This document shows, piece by piece, positions 11,415 through 34,535 of a stretch of DNA of 64,000 nucleotides (position 1 is its first letter; every line of letters starts with the position of its first letter). The notes under the pieces are model-generated. The model saw nothing but the letters and a program-made list of their open reading frames with translations, had not been told where the DNA came from and ran no database searches. The translations under genes were made by a program, and so were the position numbers. The stretch is from a bacterium (lineage in GTDB: Bacteria; Elusimicrobiota; Elusimicrobia; UBA1565; UBA9628): NCBI GenBank assembly GCA_021822495.1, contig JAKAQO010000002.1, forward strand, positions 159,044 to 223,043, in the 5' to 3' direction.

Positions 11415-14400
11415 CTACTGGTTTTTCACGTGCGCGTTAAGCCAGGCCGACAAAGCTTGAGATTGGGTTTCTTTAAAATGAACCCCGATCTCAAGGGCTT
11501 CCAAAGTCTGGCTGATTTGCTTGTCCGCCCCCTCCACCTGATGTTGGGGATCGGCGAAAAAGGTTTTGATTTGATTGAGCCAATCCTGAGACCACAAGTT
11601 GGAAAGTGACCCGATAATTCTCAAAGCTCCAAGCCCGCCGGCTTTTTTCAAGAAATCGGCCCAGTGACCCTCGACAAATTTCCAAGCCGTTCCCTGAACC
11701 TCTTTGTTCGCCAAAAGACCGCTGACTGATTTCCAGGAATCTTGCCCGCGAATTTCATCGGTCAAACTCATTTGAAGAAGTTTTTGGGCCAAGGCGTCCT
11801 GTTTAAAATCCGTCATCGCCATCTGAAAATTATTTCTCTCCTCCGGCGTTTTGGCCGCGTCCATTCTTTGACGATACTCCTCAAAGAGCGCCTCGTTACC
11901 GGACTTGGCCCCAAGCCCCAAAACGACGCCGACCAAGGAAGGATCAAGCGTGTTGGGATCTTTTAAATATTGATTAAGGCGGTCTTGAATCTGAGCCGAG
12001 AGTTCCGGCGTCGGCGCGATCTCTCCCAAAGTCGAAAGAACGGCGGCGCGAGAAGATTTTATCTCATCCGAATCATTCGGGCTTCCCCATCCCAACTTTT
12101 CCCAATGCGGAAGCAGAATTTCCTGGGCCCACTTTTGCATCAACGGCCGGTCTTGAGGAGAAGTCAAATTATCATCCATCGCCAGCAAATACCCGGCGAT
12201 ATCGCGCAAGACAATGCGGCTATCATCAGTCTTAAGTTTCTCAAGAGCGTTCAAAAAAACCGATAGCGGAACGTCTCCCGCCTTGGCCTCGGCCCACAAA
12301 TCGTTAAGGAAACCCGAACGTTCAATCGGGGTTAAATCCGAAATTGAATTTTCAAGCGCGCCTTGGAACTTTGAGTCCAAAGCCGTCCGGTAAAAACCGG
12401 TTTGGTCTTGATTGGCATAAACCCACTCAACCGCGCCTTGAGCGGGAAGAGAAACCGTCATCTTTTTTTGTTTTAAATTCACGCGGTAAGAATGAACGCC
12501 GGATGAATCCTTATATTTCAAAACGACGGGAATGTTCCAGAGAGAATCTCCGCTCTCGATACTCCCATGCGCGGAGAAGCGGCGCTGGGATAAACTAAGC
12601 GCACGGTTATCCGGAGAAAGAGAAGAAACGCTCACCAGGGGATAACCGGGAATCGTAATCCAGTCATTGGCAATGGAGGCAACATCTTGGCCGGAAGCCT
12701 TTGATAGTTCATTCCACAAATCTTCTTTATTGGTGTTTTGGTATTGATACTTCGTCAGATAATTGTGAAGGCCTTTTCTGAAATTCACGTCTCCCAAATA
12801 ATTTTCCAGCATCCGCAAGAAAGCCCCGCCCTTGTTATAGGTCAAGGCGTCAAACATCGCCTGCGCCTGTTGCGGAGAAGAAACCTTTGAAAAAATCGGC
12901 CGCGTGTTTCTCAAGGAATCAACCGACAAAGCCGAACGGGTAGACTCCAAGAAGTCTTCCCAGATATTCCAATCGGGATGGAGCTCGCTGATGGTCTTGT
13001 ACGACCTAAAATCAGCGAAGGCCTCGTTTAAAAAAAGTCCGTCCCACCATTTCATCGTGACCAAATCGCCAAACCATAAATGTTCCTGTTCATGGTCAAC
13101 GGTGATGGCGACGTTTTTCTTGACCCCCAAGGATGACCGGGCATCGGTAAAAATGGCGGCGTCCCGAAAGAAAATAGAACCCCAGTTTTCCATCGCCCCC
13201 GCGTCAAAGTCCGGCACCGCGACCAAATCCAGTTTAGGAAGCGGGTAATTGACTCCGTAATATTCGTTAAGGTGAAGAAGATTGGAGACGGCTTCGTTTA
13301 AGGCAAAATCCACCTGGTTCATATCCTCGGGTCGCGCCCAAACGCGAATCAAGGTTTTTCCGGCCATCTTGCTTTTAGAATCAAGCCGAGCGACCGCCAA
13401 AGCCAAGAGATAGGTTGACATTTTGGGAGACTGGGCGAAAGAAACCGTTTGAAGGTTTCCGTTTTCCACGCGCGAAAGGTCCGGCATATTGGAGACGATG
13501 GATAAATCTTTCGGCGCCGTTACGGTCAGCTTAAATTTTGCCTTAAAAAACGGTTCATCCCAGGAGGGAAACATTCTTCGCGCATCCGCCGGCTCAAATT
13601 GGCTAAAAGCGTAATTTTCTTCTTGGCCGTCGTGTTTGGCCTTTGACAAATAGAGGCCTCTTAGGTTTTGATTGAGCTTTGCCGAATATCGAAACTCAAG
13701 AGACACAGGGCCCAAGGGAAGCGTCTTTCCGGCGTCAAGGGTCAAGATTTGTTTTTCTGGGTCAAAATGAATCTGACTTTGAGGGAGAACGGCCCCGTTT
13801 AAACGCACTTCCGAAATATCCATCGCCGCGGCGTTAAGAATAATTTTGTCGGTTTCCTTCTTAACCACGGCTTGAATGGTCGCCTCGCCCGAAAAATCCT
13901 GGGTCTCCGGATTGACACTCAGTTTCAGATCATAGGTTTGAGGCAAAATATCGGTCGGAAGCTGACCGGGATAAGATTCTTCCAAGGCGGGCTTTGAAAG
14001 CCTTAAACTCGACGCAGAGATTCCTTCTTCGTTTTTCGCAAGAATCTGACCGCGACCCGTCCCATGATCGAAGAGACGTTCTAAGCGGCCAAAAGCGCGA
14101 TCCGGGGAAACAAGATTCTGAATATTATTTTTAAGGACGCGCGCTTTTTTCTTAAAGGAAAGGACCGCTTCTGAAATTTTGGAGAGTTTGGAAGCGGGCG
14201 CCGGAACATGGTTTGAGACTTTGACCGCGTTTAAATGTTGGACGGATTCTAGCGGCGCATCTATTTTAATCTGTTGTTCAACGCCCGCCTCATCCTGATT
14301 TAAGATCAAATTTTGGTCCGGCAAGGCGCTTAAAATTCCATTTTCTCCGGCAACGGGTAAATCTTGAGACTGAATCTCAATGGGAGAGCCTTGAAGAGAA

Positions 14401-23746: not shown

Positions 23747-26242
23747 TTAAATTCTCGGCGCGCCGAAAATAATGGGCAGCGTCACGAAGACATTGCCTCG
23801 GCGGACAACCAAACTCGCCGGATCTCCGGGGCGGAGATGCACTAGGGCTTTCTCCAGAGAACGGAAATTCGGAGTGTTAATCACCATCGGCATTCCGCCA
23901 ATGGGAATCAAGATAACCCGCGCAATCACGTCCCCGGGCCGTAACTTGGCCGCGGCGGCGGGAGAGCCCGGGCGAACGGCGTCAATCTGAACGCCCTTGG
24001 CCGGGCGCAAAGAGGCGATAATTCCCAGATGGGCAAAGTCAATATTGCCGACGGCCTGATATTCCGAAACCGCGTCCAACAGCTCATTTGCGGCAATCGC
24101 AAATCCGATTCCAACCGAACCTCCCTCTTGAGCCGGCGTGTAAATCGCGACATCCATACCGACAAGTTCGCCCTTGGAATTTAAAAGCGGGCCGCCGGAA
24201 TTACCCGGGTTAATCGAGGCATCAGTCTGAATATAATCATAAAGAAATTCCGGGCCGTTTCCAAGACGGCTGACGATGCCCCGGCTGGCAGTAAGCCCCA
24301 CGTCATAAGGATATCCCAAGGCAATCACTTTATCCCCCATGACTGGAGCGGTTCTCGCAATGGAAATATACGGATAGTTTTGGCCGGCGGGCAAAGTTGG
24401 AAGCCTTAAAATCGCGATGTCTTTTTGATGGTCGATGGCCAAGACTTCGGCGACGCTGGGAATACCGTTAATTAAAATTTTCAAGGCCGTTCCGGGCGGG
24501 ACATCCCCCGCGACATGGGCATTGGTCAAAGCGATGCCGGAAGGCGAAATCAAATATCCGGTTCCGAGTCCTCGCCCATCTCCTGAATAGACCTTGAGAA
24601 CGGCGGGCTTCACTTTCTCAATAATTTGTTTGGGAGAAAGAGAGGGCAAATTACGCGGAGCCTCAGGCACGGAAAACTTTTCAATCGCGGGCACTTGCGC
24701 CACGATGGAAGGAACCGCTAACGTAACGGCGGGCAGCGCTAGGGAATTTACATTCGCGCGAAACTCGCTTCCAGAGATTCCAAGAGAAACGGCAATCAAA
24801 AGAGCCGGGATTAAAAATCTCACGCTTTGACGCAGCTTCCGAATATCCCATTGCCCTTTTTTAAATTTTTGATATAAGCTTTTCACGAACGCAAAACCCA
24901 AAACGCCCAGGGACGCGACGGCCAAGGTAATCCTATAGTCCTTAAAAACCGCCGGAGAAGCAAAATGAGACAACGCAATCCAGGTTCCCAAAAGCCAGAG
25001 AAAATTATAGGCGTAATGGGCGACCGTCGAAGAAATCAAGGATCGGCTACGGTAAACGACAAAAGACAAAGCCGCTCCCATCACGCCCAGTTGAGCTAAA
25101 ATCAAGGGATAAGCGCCCCAAGCCGCGAGATGGGCTTTGGCAAAAAGAACAGCCGAGGAACCCGCCGCGACAAAAAAGGCGTTAGAGGTTATTTTTTTCC
25201 CAATCCAGTTAAGAGCCTTGGGCAAGCGATTTTTAAGCGGAGAAAAGAAATCCGGCAACAAACTTAATTTTTTGGATATAAAATTAAAAGTTGGACGAGC
25301 CGCAGCCGCCGCCAGGAAAACGCCGCCAAATAAAAATCCGCGATAATGAATTTCCTCTAAAGCCGCTTTTGAAAATAATCCCCAGGAAAGAAAAGACCCC
25401 GCGTGAGCGTTCAAGGCCGCCATAATCTGAGCCGGCCCGTCGTGAATCAGAAGTTCCGCGTGCCCGGACTTTTGAAGAGCCTCCGGCGTAAGACCCAAGA
25501 GCCAGTTGAGCTTTAAATGGTTCACCCAGGCGGAATTTAAAATCTGGCTTATCGCATAAACGATTAAGTGCGAAATTCCTTGCATGATAAATCCCCACTT
25601 AAGGCCGTAGAGAATCTGGCCGCCGAGAGTCATCTTCTTATAGGACGGGCCGCCATAAGAATCCGGAACTTGAACTTCGGGGATGACGGAGTTAGGGACT
25701 GTCCCTGATTCCGCGCTAGGCCTCAAAGAGTTGACGGAATTGGGGACTGTCCCTAACTCCTTAACTCCAGCGCCCGCTTCCAACTTTCCCGTTCCAGCCT
25801 TTTCTCCGAAAAATCGATCAAGAAAACTTTTGGAAACCGCAAGATTTTTTCGCCCCAACGCCGCCTGAGTCTTTTTTTGAAATTTTTGGAAACCTTTTTT
25901 AAATGAATGGAGGGATTTTTCCTTGGAGCGAGATTTCGGAGCTCTCCCTAATTTCTTAAGTTTTTTCTCCGCTTTCGGCCAAAACCCTTCCTTCATTAAC
26001 ACAGAGGGCTTGGCTAATTCAACGGAAACGGAGATAGGGAGTGTCCCTATTTCCGCGTTAGGCATTAGGGAGTTGGAATTGACGTCCAGTGTCCCCATCT
26101 CGATAGGGGCATCATGTCCGGCATTTTCTTCCGCCCCAATTCCCGCCCACGCGAGCGGCGAAAGACTGCCCCAAATCAAGCTTAAGGATAAAATGAAAGA
26201 CAGCAGGGAGCGAAGATGAAAACGGGTTTTTAAAGAGTTCAT
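23747..26242 (-). CDS. CPBP intramembrane protease - HtrA/PDZ fusion protein, 831 aa
   Basis: Residues 1-33 are a signal peptide (LSFILSLSLIWGSLSPLAWA), followed by ~170 residues of basic, low-complexity pro-region. About 205-460 is a multi-pass CPBP (Rce1-like) domain with EEIHYRG (~296), FAKAH (~368) and HYAYN (~410), the three catalytic motifs. About 525-735 is a trypsin-like domain with His in LTNAHVAGD, Asp in HQKDIAIL and Ser in NPGNSGGP. About 740-831 is a PDZ domain. All catalytic residues of both proteases are present. The fusion of intramembrane and HtrA proteases is unfamiliar to me. Two palindromic repeats are inserted in frame in the pro-region. The ATG directly follows a -10 box, with no SD. 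Confidence 0.9.
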   Translation of the reverse strand: MNSLKTRFHLRSLLSFILSLSLIWGSLSPLAWAGIGAEENAGHDAPIEMGTLDVNSNSLMPNAEIGTLPISVSVELAKPSVLMKEGFWPKAEKKLKKLGRAPKSRSKEKSLHSFKKGFQKFQKKTQAALGRKNLAVSKSFLDRFFGEKAGTGKLEAGAGVKELGTVPNSVNSLRPSAESGTVPNSVIPEVQVPDSYGGPSYKKMTLGGQILYGLKWGFIMQGISHLIVYAISQILNSAWVNHLKLNWLLGLTPEALQKSGHAELLIHDGPAQIMAALNAHAGSFLSWGLFSKAALEEIHYRGFLFGGVFLAAAAARPTFNFISKKLSLLPDFFSPLKNRLPKALNWIGKKITSNAFFVAAGSSAVLFAKAHLAAWGAYPLILAQLGVMGAALSFVVYRSRSLISSTVAHYAYNFLWLLGTWIALSHFASPAVFKDYRITLAVASLGVLGFAFVKSLYQKFKKGQWDIRKLRQSVRFLIPALLIAVSLGISGSEFRANVNSLALPAVTLAVPSIVAQVPAIEKFSVPEAPRNLPSLSPKQIIEKVKPAVLKVYSGDGRGLGTGYLISPSGIALTNAHVAGDVPPGTALKILINGIPSVAEVLAIDHQKDIAILRLPTLPAGQNYPYISIARTAPVMGDKVIALGYPYDVGLTASRGIVSRLGNGPEFLYDYIQTDASINPGNSGGPLLNSKGELVGMDVAIYTPAQEGGSVGIGFAIAANELLDAVSEYQAVGNIDFAHLGIIASLRPAKGVQIDAVRPGSPAAAAKLRPGDVIARVILIPIGGMPMVINTPNFRSLEKALVHLRPGDPASLVVRRGNVFVTLPIIFGAPRI
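25688..25760. repeat. Palindromic element copy inside the CPBP-HtrA coding sequence (copy 1)
   Basis: 73 bp with perfect 12-bp inverted ends: GGAGTTAGGGAC (25688-25699) and GTCCCTAACTCC (25749-25760). It contains two GGGACTGTCCC cores 48 nt apart (25695, 25743). Read on the minus strand in frame, it encodes ELGTVPNS...ESGTVPNS. No stop is introduced. Confidence 0.8.
26030..26102. repeat. Palindromic element copy inside the CPBP-HtrA coding sequence (copy 2)
   Basis: A diverged copy of the element at 25688-25760. Cores start at 26037 (GGGAGTGTCCC) and 26085 (TCCAGTGTCCC), again 48 nt apart, and TTCCGCG(C/T)TAGGC between the cores is shared by both copies. The minus strand encodes EMGTLDVNS...AEIGTLPIS in frame. 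More mutated than copy 1, hence probably older. Confidence 0.7.
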
Positions 26243-28439: not shown

Positions 28440-29686
28440 TGGGATTTTGAGAGTTTAAAATCCTCCGGAAATTTTTTCATAAATCCCCGGACGACCATGC
28501 CAACGGTATCCCCTAAAGCGCAAATGACTTTTCCGGTGATGTTCTCGCCCACGCGCTGAAGATTGGGAAAATCCTCCGTAGAACCTTCTCCGGACATGAC
28601 CCGTTCTAAAATCCGGGTCGTCCATTCGGAACCCTCGCGGCACGGCGTGCACTGCCCGCAGGATTCATGCGCCAAGAAACGCTCGATGTTGTGCGCCGTT
28701 TCCACCATGTTCCGAGTCTCATCCAAAACGACAATTCCGCCGGCTCCAAGGAAAGTTCCTAAGCCCCTCAAACTTTCAAAATCCATCGGAACGTCAATTT
28801 CAGAAGCGGCAATGGGAGGAGTGGAAGTCCCGCCAGGGATGACGCATTTAAGCGCCCTTCCGCCTTTAATGCCGCCCGCGGTTTCAATCATCTTCCTCAG
28901 GGGAGTTCCCATCGGAAACTCATACACTCCGGGATTTTCAACATCTCCCGAAATGGAAAAAAGTCCGGTCCCGCCGGTTTTCGCAACCCCAAGTTTCGCG
29001 AAAGCTTCCCCCCCGTCTTTCAAAATAAGCGGAAGCATGGCCAAGGTCTCGACATTGTTGACCACCGTCGGTTGTCCCATGAGACCTTTCACCGTCGGAA
29101 AAGGCGGCGGCTGCCGGGGCCAGGCTTTTTTGCCTTCCATTGTTTCAAGAAGAGCGGTATCCAGCCCACAAATATAGGCGCCAGCTCCGCGCATGAGCGA
29201 AATACGGCAGGAAAATCCGCTACCCATGATATTTTTTCCAATAAGCCCCTCGTGTTCCGCCTCGGCGATGGCCTTAGAGAGAATTTGATGTTGAACGGCG
29301 TATTCGCCGCGAATAAAGATAAACCCGTCTTCCGCTCCAATCGCATAAGCGGCAATTAAAATCCCCTCAAGAACGCTGTGTGGAGATTTGGTCATCAAAA
29401 CTCTATCTTTAAAACATCCGGGCTCGGACTCATCGGCATTGGCCACCACATATCGGGGCCCCGGCAATTTATCCTTGGGTGGAACTGTTTCCCATTTCAT
29501 GCCGGTCGCAAAACCCGCTCCGCCAAGTCCCCTTAAATTTGATTTTTTGACCTCTGCCGTCACATCTGAGGGCTTAAGCGAAAGCGCTTTTTTAAGGCCT
29601 TCGTAACCGCCCAATTTCTTATAAGTCTCCAATTCATGCAAATTCGGCTCGTCAAAATGCTTCTTTAAAATTTTAGTCTCGGTCAT
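28436..29686 (-). CDS. nuoF: NADH-quinone oxidoreductase subunit F, 416 aa
   Basis: Flavoprotein subunit of complex I: binds NADH and FMN and one [4Fe-4S] cluster. Motifs: LRGLGGAGFATGMKWETVP, YVVANADESEPGCFKDR, YICGLDTALLETMEG, and the cluster ligands ESCGQCTPCREGSEW. The start is ATG 29684-29686 (MTETKIL), preceded by AAAGGAAACC and overlapped by the stop of the 37-codon ORF. It is last of the nuo genes in the operon. Confidence 0.95.
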   Translation of the reverse strand: MTETKILKKHFDEPNLHELETYKKLGGYEGLKKALSLKPSDVTAEVKKSNLRGLGGAGFATGMKWETVPPKDKLPGPRYVVANADESEPGCFKDRVLMTKSPHSVLEGILIAAYAIGAEDGFIFIRGEYAVQHQILSKAIAEAEHEGLIGKNIMGSGFSCRISLMRGAGAYICGLDTALLETMEGKKAWPRQPPPFPTVKGLMGQPTVVNNVETLAMLPLILKDGGEAFAKLGVAKTGGTGLFSISGDVENPGVYEFPMGTPLRKMIETAGGIKGGRALKCVIPGGTSTPPIAASEIDVPMDFESLRGLGTFLGAGGIVVLDETRNMVETAHNIERFLAHESCGQCTPCREGSEWTTRILERVMSGEGSTEDFPNLQRVGENITGKVICALGDTVGMVVRGFMKKFPEDFKLSKSQ

Positions 29687-29796
29687 GGTTTCCTTTTGCA
29701 AAAACTCTGGCTCCAACCATTTCTGACCGAATATAAATGAGGGAATGCCGCTTCCAAATTCCGTTTAAGAGAGCGGCCTCGCTTAAGCTCGGTCAT
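29683..29796 (-). CDS. Intercistronic small ORF between nuoE and nuoF, 37 aa
   Basis: It begins with an ATG that overlaps the nuoE TGA (ATGA, 29793-29796) and ends with a TGA that overlaps the nuoF ATG (ATGA, 29683-29686). It starts MTELKRGRSLKR, contains RNGW and ends KRKP. The start, the NG(W/C) segment and the RKP end recur in the 19-codon ORFs at 31617-31676 and 34476-34535; this copy has 18 additional codons in the middle. It could be a translated coupling peptide or simply the repeat that carries the SD AAGGAAACC for the next gene. Confidence 0.45.
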   Translation of the reverse strand: MTELKRGRSLKRNLEAAFPHLYSVRNGWSQSFCKRKP

Positions 29797-30299
29797 GAGA
29801 TAATCTCGTTGATTAAATTTTCGGTCGCCTTGCCTTTTAGTTCTTCGTTCACGATAAGGGCCGGAGCGTGTTCACAGGCCCCCAAACATTCCATCTCTTC
29901 CCAAGAAAACTCGCCACCCGGAGTCGTCTCAAATTCCTTGACTTTCAATTTTTTTTCAAGGAATTCGGCGATTCTATCCGACCCCACCATGGCGCAGGAA
30001 AGCCCGTGGCAAAGCCCGATTCTTTTTCTCCCGGTCGGTTTTTTTGTGAAAAGCGGGAAAAAGGTCGCGACCTGATGAACATGGTTTTGAGTCGTGTTAA
30101 AAATCTCGGCTAAATACGCCTCGTCTTCCGGACGTACGCACAAATGCCAGGTCTGCACCTGCCGCATGGCCTCTAAAAGGCCCATAATCGGATGCGGATA
30201 GGCCTTCGTCCAAGACTGAAGGATTTTTTCTTCCTCCGGCGAAAACGGCGAAACGCCAACCGTCTTTTTAGTTTTTTCCTCTGCTGAAATAGCGCTCAT
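29793..30299 (-). CDS. nuoE: NADH-quinone oxidoreductase subunit E, 168 aa
   Basis: Thioredoxin-like [2Fe-2S] subunit of the NADH dehydrogenase module. The cluster ligands are visible: CHGLSC (C-x4-C) and CLGAC (C-x3-C). The helical N-terminus (EEKILQSWTKAYPHPIMGLL) and NHVHQVATFFPLF are typical. ATG at 30297-30299, 1 nt after the nuoD stop. Confidence 0.95.
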   Translation of the reverse strand: MSAISAEEKTKKTVGVSPFSPEEEKILQSWTKAYPHPIMGLLEAMRQVQTWHLCVRPEDEAYLAEIFNTTQNHVHQVATFFPLFTKKPTGRKRIGLCHGLSCAMVGSDRIAEFLEKKLKVKEFETTPGGEFSWEEMECLGACEHAPALIVNEELKGKATENLINEIIS

Positions 30300-30300
30300 A

Positions 30301-31620
30301 TTACCGGTCCAATTCCCCCGCGATCATATTGACGGATCCAAAAGTCGGAACAATATCAGCCACCCAACCGCCATCAATTATTTTAGAAAGAGCGGCCATC
30401 GGGTTTAAGCACGGTGGGCGGCATCTGACGCGATAAGGGCGATCTTCTCCGGAGCTAACGACGTGAAAGCCGAGTTCGCCGTTCCCACCTTCAACCGCGA
30501 AATAAACCTCGCCTGCGGGAATTCTAATTCCCCAATTCCACATTACAAGCTCGAAATGATTCATAAGCCCTTCAATCGAGCCATAAGTCTCTTCTTTGGG
30601 CGGCAAAACTGCCGTGCGATTAGCCGCGCGAGCGACCCCTACTTCATTTCGGTCATAGCCCTCTAACGTCGCATCCACCTTGGCTTTATATTTTTTCAAG
30701 AGCGCGGTATCGCCTTTTTTGCCCGCATCCTGATAAACAAAAGCGTCCTTCATTTCGGAAACTTCCAAGGAATGCTTCCCCTCGGGAATTTGTTTCAAGC
30801 ATTGCTCTATTAAGCGCAAGCTTTGCTCGATTTCAGCCATGCGCACTAAATAGCGGTCGTAATTGTCGCCCTTCAAACCAACCGGAATTTCAAAATCCAA
30901 GCGATCGTAAATCAGATAGGGATGCGCCCGTCTAAGATCGTAGGGAACGCCCGTTGAACGCAAGAAAGGCCCGGTAATTCCATAGGCAATGGCGTCATCA
31001 GCGGAAATGACACCCACATTTTCCATGCGGTCCCGAAAAATGCGGTTTTTGGTCAAAAGCTTATCGGAATCAACAACCGCTTCCCGCACTTTCTTAAAAA
31101 CCTCGCGGAGATTTTCGGCGAAATTTTGAGGCAAATCGCCTTTGACTCCGCCCACCCGGGTATAAGAAGTGGTAAGCCGCGCGCCGGTCAATTGATCCAC
31201 CATTTGATACAAATATTCCCGCGCTTTAATAAGGTAGAGAAAAACCGTGAAAGCCCCGAGTTCCATGGCCGAAGCCCCGATGCAAGTTAGATGATCAGTG
31301 ACCCGCGAAATTTCGCAGGCAATGGTCCGCAAATACTGTCCTCTTTCCGGAATCTCAATTCCCGCCAATTTTTCGACCGCCATGCAATAACCGACATTAT
31401 TAATCAGCGGAGAGACGTAGTTCAGGCGATCCGTGTAGGGAACGACGTTGTTCCAAATTTCATTTTCTGATTGTTTCTCGAAAGCGCGGTGGAGATATCC
31501 AATCTCGGCGTCAGAACGGACGATTTTTTCGCCGTCTAATTCCAAAACCAGGCGCACCACGCCGTGCATCGCCGGATGTTGCGGCCCCATATTCAAAAGA
31601 AAGTTTTTTTGCTCAGTCAT
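30301..31620 (-). CDS. nuoD: NADH-quinone oxidoreductase subunit D, 439 aa
   Basis: The 49-kDa subunit forming the quinone site with NuoB. Typical: LNMGPQHPAMHGVVRLVLELDGE near the start, IGYLHRAFEK, YTDRLNYVSPL, GVKGDLPQNF, and the C-terminal RPPCLNPMAAL...GSVNMIAGELDR. Start ATG 31618-31620 (MTEQKNF) with GGAAGGAAACC upstream; an in-frame extension to 31650 is less likely. The ATG overlaps the stop of the 19-codon ORF. Confidence 0.95.
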   Translation of the reverse strand: MTEQKNFLLNMGPQHPAMHGVVRLVLELDGEKIVRSDAEIGYLHRAFEKQSENEIWNNVVPYTDRLNYVSPLINNVGYCMAVEKLAGIEIPERGQYLRTIACEISRVTDHLTCIGASAMELGAFTVFLYLIKAREYLYQMVDQLTGARLTTSYTRVGGVKGDLPQNFAENLREVFKKVREAVVDSDKLLTKNRIFRDRMENVGVISADDAIAYGITGPFLRSTGVPYDLRRAHPYLIYDRLDFEIPVGLKGDNYDRYLVRMAEIEQSLRLIEQCLKQIPEGKHSLEVSEMKDAFVYQDAGKKGDTALLKKYKAKVDATLEGYDRNEVGVARAANRTAVLPPKEETYGSIEGLMNHFELVMWNWGIRIPAGEVYFAVEGGNGELGFHVVSSGEDRPYRVRCRPPCLNPMAALSKIIDGGWVADIVPTFGSVNMIAGELDR

Positions 31621-31676
31621 GGTTTCCTTCCATACAAACCGTTGAACCAACCATTTCTTCGCTTAGGCTCAGTCAT
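31617..31676 (-). CDS. Intercistronic small ORF between nuoC and nuoD, 19 aa
   Basis: Complete peptide MTEPKRRNGWFNGLYGRKP. The ATG (31674-31676) overlaps the nuoC end by 8 nt, and the TGA overlaps the nuoD ATG (ATGA). It matches the ORF at 34476-34535 in length and at 10 of 19 residues. The last part of the ORF supplies the SD for nuoD. Confidence 0.45.
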   Translation of the reverse strand: MTEPKRRNGWFNGLYGRKP

Positions 31677-32304
31677 ATTTCACCGTGGGGCGGATGATGT
31701 TAAAGCTCGGGCTATTCTCGCGCTCGCCGGAGGATGGGCCGATCAAGGGCTGCCTTTTGGTAATCGGATAATCCTTGCGAAGGGGATGACCTTTAAACTC
31801 TTCATACATGAGAAGGCGCTTGATGTTGGGGCGGTCAATAAACGAAATTCCAAACATATCCCAGACTTCTCTTTCCAACCAGTCCGCAATTGGCCACAAA
31901 CTCATGACCGAGCGCAAAACCGGCGGGGTTTCCGGCGCTCCGCAATGAACATAAACCCGCCCGAGATCGTCTCCGGTTTTTGGGTCTAATTTCATCAAGC
32001 GGTAAACGACTTCAAATCTGTCCTGAACCGGAGCTTTAATGTTGGGTTCGCTTAAACTATCCGTTCCGGGGAGATGCGGAGTTCCGTATTCTTCTCCCTC
32101 GGCGGAAGCCAAGGGACGCGGAATAATTTGCTGTTGAAGTGGATGCGCCCGCTTCCAAGAATCAGTTTTGTCTCCGGAAGAGCCGTAGGCGGAATAATCC
32201 ACGGCGGTCAAATCAACGAGCATATTGTAGCCTTCGTCTTTAAGCTTCTTGAGGGTCTCAAAGGCTTCGGAAGCCGAAACTCGCATTTCTTTAAGCTCAG
32301 TCAT
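31669..32304 (-). CDS. nuoC: NADH-quinone oxidoreductase subunit C, 211 aa
   Basis: The 30-kDa subunit: MLVDLTAVDYS, RFEVVYRLMKLDPKTG, SVMSLWPIADWLEREVWDMFGI, and HPLRKDYP. Between VDYS and RFEVVY is an insertion of roughly 50 residues not usual in bacterial NuoC. ATG at 32302-32304 overlaps the nuoB stop. The gene starts ATGACTGAGCTTAAA, almost the same sequence that opens the small intercistronic ORFs. Confidence 0.94.
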   Translation of the reverse strand: MTELKEMRVSASEAFETLKKLKDEGYNMLVDLTAVDYSAYGSSGDKTDSWKRAHPLQQQIIPRPLASAEGEEYGTPHLPGTDSLSEPNIKAPVQDRFEVVYRLMKLDPKTGDDLGRVYVHCGAPETPPVLRSVMSLWPIADWLEREVWDMFGISFIDRPNIKRLLMYEEFKGHPLRKDYPITKRQPLIGPSSGERENSPSFNIIRPTVKYD

Positions 32305-32777
32305 TTGATTGCCTCGCCCGCTTGTTTCTCAATTTTCTTTTGAAGAAGAATGAGACCTTCCAAAACGATTTCTGGACGCGGCGGACACCCAGGGATATAA
32401 ACGTCGACCGGAACAATCGTATCAATTCCCTGAACGGTTGAATAATTATTGTAAAAACCGCCGGTGCAGGTGCAAACCCCGAAGGCAACCACCCATTTGG
32501 GGGCAGCCATCTGGTCATAAATGCGGCGCAACACCGGGGCGATTTTATGCGAAATTGTTCCCACCACCATCAAGCAATCGGCTTGCCGTGGAGAAAAACG
32601 AGGAAAGGCCGCGCCAAAGCGGTCTAAATCATAATGAGACGCCGCCGTTGACATGAACTCCATTCCACAACAAGCGGTGACAAAAGGATATTGGAAAATT
32701 GAATACTTGCGCGCCCATCCCAAGGCGGCGTCCAATTGCGTCGTGACGACTCCGTCTAAAGTTTCATCTACCGGCAT
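32301..32777 (-). CDS. nuoB: NADH-quinone oxidoreductase subunit B, 158 aa
   Basis: Carries the N2 [4Fe-4S] cluster next to the quinone site. All four cysteines are visible: the CC pair in VTACCGMEF, Cys in FGVCTCTGG, and YIPGCPPRPE. The start is ATG 32775-32777 (MPVDETLDG), with GGGGG upstream and a 10-nt overlap with nuoA; the longer open frame upstream is only the shadow of nuoA. Confidence 0.95.
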   Translation of the reverse strand: MPVDETLDGVVTTQLDAALGWARKYSIFQYPFVTACCGMEFMSTAASHYDLDRFGAAFPRFSPRQADCLMVVGTISHKIAPVLRRIYDQMAAPKWVVAFGVCTCTGGFYNNYSTVQGIDTIVPVDVYIPGCPPRPEIVLEGLILLQKKIEKQAGEAIK

Positions 32778-33115
32778 TCTAAAACCCCCTTCGCCCAAAA
32801 ATAAGCGACCATGAGGGCGGTAATCAAGACAAACAAGGTCACCGATAAAACACCGAGCAAGGTCAAATGCGGGCGGCTTAAAGCCCACGGAAATAAAAGA
32901 GCGAGATCGACGTCAAAAACGACAAAAAGAACCGCGAATTTCCAGTAGAGAACGGAAATTTTTTCTTCCGCATGCTCGATGGGCGGCATTCCGGTCTCAT
33001 ACGGGAGATTTCCGTCTCCTTCGTGTTTCGGCGCGGGCCCCAAAAGACGCCCAGCATAGGTCATAATCGTCGCGATAGCGCCAACAACTAAAACATCTAA
33101 AATAAGAGCAATCAC
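32768..33115 (-). CDS. nuoA: NADH-quinone oxidoreductase subunit A, 115 aa
   Basis: Small membrane subunit with three helices: an N-terminal one, then ISVLYWKFAVLFVVFDVDLALLFPWAL and a C-terminal one. NLPYETGMPP is the family's conserved loop, but the usual Cys of the YECG loop is a Thr here. I take GTG 33113-33115, which overlaps the nuoN stop (GTGA) and gives the usual length; a GTG at 33148 would add 11 residues. Confidence 0.93.
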   Translation of the reverse strand: MIALILDVLVVGAIATIMTYAGRLLGPAPKHEGDGNLPYETGMPPIEHAEEKISVLYWKFAVLFVVFDVDLALLFPWALSRPHLTLLGVLSVTLFVLITALMVAYFWAKGVLECR

Positions 33116-34479
33116 CCTAAAACTCTCTGAAAAGCGGATAGAATCCACGGTAAAAATCCAACAATGGCTGAATACGCGGCGCTCAAAGAAACAATGAGAC
33201 TGACGGCACCAGTCCCCGCCGCAATTTTTGAAGTCGAAACCCCTTCCTCCAAATACATTTCTCGGACAATGCGGAGATAATAAACCAAGGCCGCCAAGGT
33301 CGCGAAAGAAGCGGCAATTAAAGGAACGTAAAGCCCGGCTTTAAAGGCCTGCCAGAAAATAAGAAACTTCGCTAAAAACCCGGCTGTCGGCGGAATTCCA
33401 GCTAAAGACAAGGCCAAGGCGGCAAAACAAAAAGCCAAAACCGGGCGAGTCTTTCCTAAACCTCTTAAATCCTTCCATTCTGAAACGCCGGTCAGCTCCA
33501 AAAAGAAGAAAGCGCCGTTACTCATGAAAACGTAGGAGAAAAGATAAAAGAAAATAGGAAGCGCGTTTTTTTCGTTGGCGCCCAGCAAAAGCCACGCTCC
33601 CACGCCTAAAACTAAAACTCCCGCGTGCCCCAAAGACGAATAAGCCAAAAGCCTTTGAAGCCGGGTTTGGTTTAAAGCCGCGAAAGCCGCGACCAGCATT
33701 GTCAAGGCGCCAATAGCCGGAAGAAGAGAAATAAAACTCCCCTGGGAATATTGTCCAAGGCGCATCAAGAGAAAAACTCCGGCGGCTTTAACTGAAGTGG
33801 ACAAAAATCCGGACAGCATGGGTTCTGAAGCCTCATAAACATCAGGCAACCAAAAATGCCAAGGCACCGCGCCAATCTTAAAAAGAGCCGCAATGGCCAT
33901 GAGGCTAAAGGCCACTTGGTCCAGAAATGAGCCGTTTCCGGCAAAGAGAAAGCCGCCGGTCGCCGAATAATGACAAGCCAACCCCAAAAGAAAGAAAGCG
34001 GCGCTGAGCGAGCCGGCAAAGAAATATTTAATGGCCGCCTCCCAAGAGGGCTTGCCTTTAGCCGGAGTTAAGGCAACCAAGAGATAAACGGGAAGGCTTA
34101 AAAGTTCTAAAGAAATAAAAAGCATGAGAAGGTTCGCAGAAAAAGCGAGGAATGTCATCCCCAAAAGACTCCCCAAGAGAAGAAGCACCGCCACCTCATC
34201 TTCCCATGTTCCAGCAATTAAGAAAGGAAGAGCCCCCACATAGAAAACTGCGCACCAAGCTTTCGTGATGGCATCGGCCTGAAGAAGAGTGGAGATGCTT
34301 CCAGTCGCGGGATGAGCAAAAACAAACACGGCGGCAAGAGCCAAGCTCAAAAGCCCTAAAACCCGAACAAGCCCCACATTGATTTTTTTAAAGAGGCCGA
34401 CACAAGCGACCCCCAACACTCCGCCAAACAAAGAAATCCCAGAACCCAATGGAGCAATTCTTAAAAGCAAAGCGGTCAT
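33112..34479 (-). CDS. nuoN: NADH-quinone oxidoreductase subunit N, 455 aa
   Basis: Antiporter-like membrane subunit with about 14 helices. Signature WLPDVYEASEPMLSGFLSTS and the conserved Lys-rich proton path (SVKAAGVFLL). Start ATG 34477-34479 (MTALLLRIAP) with GGAAGGAAACC upstream, overlapped by the small ORF stop. Confidence 0.95.
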   Translation of the reverse strand: MTALLLRIAPLGSGISLFGGVLGVACVGLFKKINVGLVRVLGLLSLALAAVFVFAHPATGSISTLLQADAITKAWCAVFYVGALPFLIAGTWEDEVAVLLLLGSLLGMTFLAFSANLLMLFISLELLSLPVYLLVALTPAKGKPSWEAAIKYFFAGSLSAAFFLLGLACHYSATGGFLFAGNGSFLDQVAFSLMAIAALFKIGAVPWHFWLPDVYEASEPMLSGFLSTSVKAAGVFLLMRLGQYSQGSFISLLPAIGALTMLVAAFAALNQTRLQRLLAYSSLGHAGVLVLGVGAWLLLGANEKNALPIFFYLFSYVFMSNGAFFFLELTGVSEWKDLRGLGKTRPVLAFCFAALALSLAGIPPTAGFLAKFLIFWQAFKAGLYVPLIAASFATLAALVYYLRIVREMYLEEGVSTSKIAAGTGAVSLIVSLSAAYSAIVGFLPWILSAFQRVLG

Positions 34480-34535
34480 GGTTTCCTTCCGTACGGAATC
34501 TGGAGACAACCATTCCCTCGCTTAAGATCGGTCAT
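34476..34535 (-). CDS. Intercistronic small ORF between nuoM and nuoN, 19 aa
   Basis: Complete peptide MTDLKRGNGCLQIPYGRKP. The ATG overlaps the nuoM TGA (ATGA, 34532-34535) and the TGA overlaps the nuoN ATG (ATGA, 34476-34479). Same length and same start, middle and end as the ORF at 31617-31676. Confidence 0.45.
   Translation of the reverse strand: MTDLKRGNGCLQIPYGRKP

Follow-up and report, generated by a model that had tools for sequence, protein, structure and literature searches.

A miniature mobile element of Elusimicrobiota located almost exclusively at start codons

Complex I locus

The window analysed here is a stretch of 64,000 nt from a 2.2-Mb Elusimicrobiota genome (assembly GCA_021822495.1, contig JAKAQO010000002.1, positions 159,044 to 223,043), hereafter G000, which was compared with four genomes of the same genus (G001-G004) and with more distant ones. 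Its complex I (nuo) genes lie on the minus strand, and a mini open reading frame (mini-ORF) occurs at each of the junctions nuoE/nuoF, nuoC/nuoD and nuoM/nuoN, as the original prediction had described. These mini-ORFs are copies of a dispersed short mobile element that is not specific to nuo. Very probably, it is a non-autonomous miniature mobile element of Elusimicrobiota, resembling repetitive extragenic palindromic (REP) sequences and miniature inverted-repeat transposable elements (MITEs), which inserts almost exclusively into start codons (CCA^TGA, the caret marking the insertion point). The features of the three copies are listed below, with mini-ORF coordinates given 5' to 3' on the minus strand.

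29796-29683, minus strand: mini-ORF of copy 1, nuoE/nuoF, 37 codons, from the former nuoF ATG to a TGA overlapping the present nuoF ATG
31676-31617, minus strand: mini-ORF of copy 2, nuoC/nuoD, 19 codons, peptide MTEPKRRNGWFNGLYGRKP followed by a stop
34535-34476, minus strand: mini-ORF of copy 3, nuoM/nuoN, 19 codons, peptide MTDLKRGNGCLQIPYGRKP followed by a stop
29686..29795, minus strand: element copy 1, in the nuoF start codon, 110-nt composite of the short element and an inverted palindromic module
31620..31675, minus strand: element copy 2, in the nuoD start codon, 56-nt form
34479..34534, minus strand: element copy 3, in the nuoN start codon, 56-nt form
29687..29695, minus strand: element-borne Shine-Dalgarno (SD) sequence AAGGAAACC before nuoF
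31621..31629, minus strand: element-borne SD sequence AAGGAAACC before nuoD
34480..34488, minus strand: element-borne SD sequence AAGGAAACC before nuoN
29715..29719, minus strand: left hairpin arm TGGTT of copy 1, partner 29686-29690
31649..31653, minus strand: left hairpin arm TGGTT of copy 2, partner 31620-31624
34508..34512, minus strand: left hairpin arm TGGTT of copy 3, pairing with 34479-34483 in the fold of this copy
34479..34483, minus strand: right hairpin arm AACCA of copy 3, its last base being the A of the nuoN ATG

The TGA of all three mini-ORFs overlaps the ATG of the following gene (ATGA). The same coupling had been proposed for the upstream ends, and it holds at nuoE and nuoM (ATGA) but not at nuoC, where the mini-ORF starts 5 nt before the nuoC stop codon and the two frames overlap by 8 nt (ATGACTGA) with no shared ATG and stop codon. 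The relatedness of the three mini-ORFs is far above chance, the sequence model described below matching them in the window with E-values of 1.5e-19, 3.2e-18 and 3.9e-10. The resemblance that had been noted at the start of nuoC itself is coincidental, since this gene natively begins with ATGAGCGAAATTAAAGAA in both G001 and G004; this stretch is not part of the element, and its candidacy as a further copy was ruled out.

Distribution and mobility of the element

Copies were sought by pattern, DNA, sequence-model and concatenated-protein searches, together with targeted stretches. The element has the layout TGACCGAG…AATGGTTG…AAGGAAACCA and measures 56 nt in its short form and 110 or 161 nt as a composite. 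The pattern AATGGTTGN{8,36}AGGAAACC matched 11 times in G000 and never in a reversed control, and an ATG followed directly in 11 of 11 cases, though this codon lies outside the pattern. Looking for the unit of about 60 bp at other gene junctions, as had been proposed, thus revealed many further copies in the genome, before unrelated genes. Nineteen were delimited in G000, namely 13 short (56-57 nt) and six composite (110 or 161 nt), the latter holding one or two further palindromic modules.

A sequence model built from 23 copies gave 24, 29 and 15 matches in G002, G003 and G004, respectively; among other genomes, it matched 32 times in G013, 40 times in G040 and 11 times in each of G011 and G019, with lower counts in the rest. 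Related copies span several genera and three families of the order, throughout which the element is found. When 150 genomes of the phylum were drawn to look outside the order, one more genome carried the element; it belongs to a different family of the class and has two copies, each at a start codon. Pattern matches outside Elusimicrobiota (Bacteroidales, Paenibacillus and others) were attributed to chance, being weak partial matches to the model that lack the 5' part. The element matched no known RNA family in Rfam, and a low-value scan of viral contigs with a nuoD query gave no match, as expected. Overall, 86 copies were delimited across genomes, and these form the base of the placement, phase and SD counts given below.

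Sites occupied in one genome are empty in others of the same genus. The nuoE/nuoF site is empty in G001, where GAGATTGCGGC runs directly into ATGACTAAAATT, while the same flanks hold one composite in G004 and two tandem copies in G002. At nuoM/nuoN, G000 and G002 (L224) carry a full copy, G004 retains a remnant of 17 nt, and the site is empty in both G001 and G003. At nuoC/nuoD, the copies of G000 and G003 are intact, and those of G001 and G004 have decayed. Filled and empty sites were likewise compared at about 25 more genes, including cysS, lgt, fabF, rpe and metS, by concatenated-protein search and targeted stretches. Given the dispersed copies and the orthologous empty sites, the element is therefore mobile. 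Of the original options, the one borne out is that of a repeat spreading without disruption of operons, the element carrying an SD sequence and recreating the start codon.

Two of these junctions also hold other insertions. In G003, nuoE and nuoF are separated by an unrelated insertion of about 300 bp (L138, about 12760-13070), at a site that in other genomes holds either the start-codon element or no insertion. In G001, nuoC and nuoD flank two inserted small genes that look like a nucleotidyltransferase/HEPN pair (L139, about 13580-14330).

Target sites and insertion rule

The great majority of copies (79 of 86) run up to the start of an ORF (80 codons or longer) or precede a TGACCGA-type unit, these units being in some cases true tandem copies and in others genes that begin with ATGACCGA. 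Among the seven remaining copies, L227 marks the start of a 51-residue rpmG-like gene and L183 is unclear. Copies also lie at stop codons (L208, T^TGA; L179, T^TAG) or at an overlapping stop and start (L226, C^TAATG), and two are in frame within an N-terminal coding region (L218, G^TTTTG; L219, C^TATTTC). The window contains 87 non-coding ATGs against about 47 ORF starts, and 79 of 86 copies are start-placed nonetheless, a distribution very unlike a random one. Targets follow the consensus CCA^TGA (C 52%, A 83%, T 100%, G 95%, A 81%); an A follows the ATG in 70 of 86 targets and in 12 of 25 ordinary ORF starts (p = 0.0016). The 5' codon of the copies is ATG in 71 cases, GTG in 11, TTG in three and CTG in one.

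Two sites that depart from ATG define the ends of the element. A gene natively starting with GTGAGYGAR (G000, G001 and G003) reads GTGAC... at the 5' end and ...ACC ATGAGYGAA at the 3' end where it is filled (G002 and G004), and at L218 the native ACC G^TTTTG becomes ACC G-TGACC...AAACCA-TTTTG. The element therefore corresponds to TGACCGAG...AAACCA, with its insertion point at N^T and in most cases at N^TG. Judged from these filled and empty sequences, the native start codon becomes the start of the mini-ORF, while the final A of the element and the native TG form a new ATG behind the element's own SD sequence. Insertion of the IS200/IS605 (Y1) type uses a short fixed target that resembles the right end of the mobile element and makes no duplication. 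Here, the target CCA^TGA is the same as the right-end junction of the element itself (ACCA^TG), but the element has no linked transposase. The two ends and the target share a T or TG at most, and these bases are inseparable from the element sequence.

We suggest, quite tentatively, that the insertion machinery itself recognises translation starts beyond a short DNA motif, for example by way of exposed single strands or the mRNA initiation region. Selection alone is a possible if doubtful alternative, according to which insertion occurs at many T-containing sites and copies persist only where they recreate a start codon. The few copies at stop codons or in N-terminal coding regions are in line with it, as is the T being the sole invariant target base; neutral non-coding sites, with their many ATGs, should however have kept copies as well, and the CCATGA consensus, with its frequent A after the ATG, is unlike that of ordinary ORF starts.

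Comparison with known repeat systems

The element can be aligned with palindromes that stand alone in the same genome (GACCGAGCCTAGGCGAGGAAGTGCCGCTTCC...GAAGCGGCC), a likeness that would fit a REP element moved by a REP-associated tyrosine transposase (RAYT; TnpA-REP, a Y1 HUH transposase). Insertion after CA also fits the cleavage dinucleotide reported for one TnpA-REP (PMC8266576), and Y1_Tnp genes are present in G000. Nevertheless, the GTAG tag that marks RAYT-linked REPs (PMC8266576) is absent 5' of the stem, where nearly all copies have GCGAGGAAA or a variant of it. No element copy was found near 27 PF01797 loci in 15 genomes, and PF01797 had no match in G001, G003 and G004, the last two of which are rich in copies. 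The palindromes flanking both RAYTs of G000 are unrelated to the start-codon element. A RAYT was accordingly rejected as mobiliser, in view of these loci and flanking repeats, and we regard this origin as unlikely.

The two Y1/RAYT-type transposase genes of G000 (L103, C11:83000-87500; L104, C5:14000-18500) are flanked by palindromes of their own, of GGGGACAGTCCC type and AATTAAGTGATGTGTCCC type. Standalone palindromes headed by GACCGAG in G000 (L031, L039 and L040) look like the parent family of the element. The window also encodes a large protein (23747-26242, minus strand; CPBP-like and trypsin-like parts by eye) in which GTVPNS/GTLPIS recurs in frame several times, apparently as a family of palindromic repeats inside coding sequence.

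As with REPs and the doublets known as REPINs or bacterial interspersed mosaic elements (BIMEs), the element is a dispersed, non-autonomous, imperfect palindrome in the range of 20-60 bp, occurring as singlets and inverted composites. It differs from them in having no GTAG and no linked RAYT, in carrying an SD sequence and a translatable frame, and in lying within start codons rather than extragenically, as 79 of 86 copies have a start-codon or tandem-like context. Bacterial MITEs (BOX, RUP, ERIC and Correia type) are likewise short, dispersed and non-autonomous, with empty sites in relatives. Unlike them, the short form has no terminal inverted repeats (5' end TGACCGAG compared with the reverse complement of the 3' end, TGGTTTCC), inverted modules occurring internally and only in composites; no duplication beyond T/TG is demonstrable, and no parental transposon was found. 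The element thus works like a REP or MITE and is not classed as a RAYT-linked REP.

Rickettsia palindromic elements (RPEs) are also palindromic and have a translated frame that fits host genes, comparable to the in-frame copies L218 and L219; RPEs, however, fuse into gene bodies with a conserved peptide, whereas the present element targets start codons and regenerates the start (PMC10969869). Regulatory mini-ORFs such as the axe-txe minigene (PMC8708949) similarly place a short ORF before a gene, with frame and distance mattering, but the minigene is a single-locus regulator and the present element is dispersed.

Hairpin

A five-pair stem, TGGTY...RACCA, has the A of the new ATG as its last base and the SD sequence next to its right arm. 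It is paired in 98% of cells, and both sides are changed in 10 cells, against 2.2 in shuffles; the covariation consists of TGGTT/AACCA changing to TGGTC/GACCA and, once, to TGGCT/AGCCA. The RNA of single short copies folds no more stably than shuffles (z from -0.1 to -0.95), so the stem may serve mobility, translation or both.

This arrangement recalls a cis-acting RNA regulatory leader, a translation-control hairpin recruited by many genes and kept by selection, in which case mobility would be secondary or long past. The SD sequence and start codon at the right hairpin arm, the compensatory stem changes across genera and the SD end that is mostly kept in decayed copies are consistent with such a leader. 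It is nonetheless improbable: presence at a given gene varies among genomes of the same genus, the target genes share no common pathway, and neither the Rfam search nor the folding of short copies favours it.

Translation and peptide sequence

An SD-like 3' end is present in 84 of 86 copies, while an SD-like motif precedes the 5' codon in only 25 of 86, even by lax criteria. In 18 of 86 targets, the start codon is preceded at exactly 6 nt by the motif TAnnnT, which is similar to a -10 box, and this phased peak suggests leaderless transcripts. Such transcripts may be common in these Elusimicrobiota.

Unit length is 2 mod 3 in 64 of 86 copies, and the lengths 53, 56, 59, 107, 110 and 161 nt are all of this kind, with a frame open to the TGA. 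Ribosomes could therefore pass from the old to the new start, and the length phase and open frame suggest that the frame matters. As for the reading outcome, 57 of the 86 copies are exactly coupled, their stop overlapping the new start, nine are fused in frame, 14 stop early and six run on; in the 57-nt variants, the frame reads into the gene or stops early. Together with the SD-like ends, the 57 coupled copies have the stop/ATG overlap with an SD sequence just upstream that is known from ATGA termination-reinitiation (PMC6728339), with the difference that here a mobile element provides the coupled minicistron. Second-codon bias might be read as selection for such a stop, which is not claimed (p = 0.01 overall, p = 0.71 within genus). 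A dedicated translational relay, one of the roles first envisaged, remains plausible as a by-product that would keep the downstream gene translated, but it is neither specific to nuo nor universal, given the 57-nt variants.

The amino-acid sequence of the mini-ORFs is not kept by selection, as nonsynonymous changes are in excess and synonymous ones in deficit. With the SD region excluded, the 56-nt type has 111 nonsynonymous changes against 91 expected, 24 synonymous against 36, and four stops against 11, and the main 53-nt type has 47 nonsynonymous against 37 and seven synonymous against 15.5. A dedicated small peptide, whether a complex I assembly factor, as had been proposed, or a leader peptide with a conserved sequence function, was therefore rejected and is extremely improbable: the three nuo copies are intact and share MT(E/D)xKRxNG...RKP, yet the element also precedes fabF, cysS, lgt, rpe, metS, a radical SAM gene and others of unrelated function, a 53-nt type in the same slot encodes the different peptide MTEHSEEMVDSEVVGGRP, copies include frameshifts and early stops, and sites are empty in genomes of the same genus.

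Discussion

Comparison among genomes demonstrates, at the level of sequence, a dispersed family, orthologous empty sites and the insertion rule. Near-exclusive placement at start codons sets this miniature mobile element apart, and the nuo mini-ORFs are its by-products. We infer that the coupled frames would work as a translational relay. Ribosomes would start at the old codon as before, either after the overlapping upstream gene or on a leaderless transcript, and then translate a mini-ORF of 18-54 codons; this translation would melt the TGGTY...RACCA hairpin flanking the SD sequence, allowing reinitiation at the overlapping ATG or, in the 57-nt form, straight read-through into the gene. The mini-peptide would have no sequence-dependent role, the open frame serving to keep the insertion harmless.

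Several observations weigh against the interpretation as a mobile element with a translatable frame. Structural types share descent, and phase conservation thus represents few independent events; the 57-nt form of G040 stops at codon 10, and several copies are frameshifted. Phase shows no significant association with a second codon that makes TGA within the genus. To these are added the unremarkable folding of single short copies, the PF01797 loci devoid of copies and the same-genus genomes lacking a PF01797 match.

Mobile elements usually avoid or destroy genes. The present one sits at the start codon, where a gene is most sensitive, in core genes and operons (complex I, metS, cysS, fabF), and its insertion is tolerated because the start codon is recreated, a ribosome-binding site is supplied and the frame is usually open and coupled. 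No description of elements inserting into start codons was found in the open-access papers searched, which is weak evidence of absence; should the insertion machinery indeed recognise translation starts, this would be the first known mobile element to target start codons. It would also mean that initiation is rewired, leaderless or overlapping starts being exchanged for the element's SD sequence and a coupled minicistron. The question thereby raised is how a transposition system finds start codons. For Elusimicrobiota, the element would account for a class of spurious small-protein annotations, and it would provide natural experiments on leaderless versus SD-dependent initiation.

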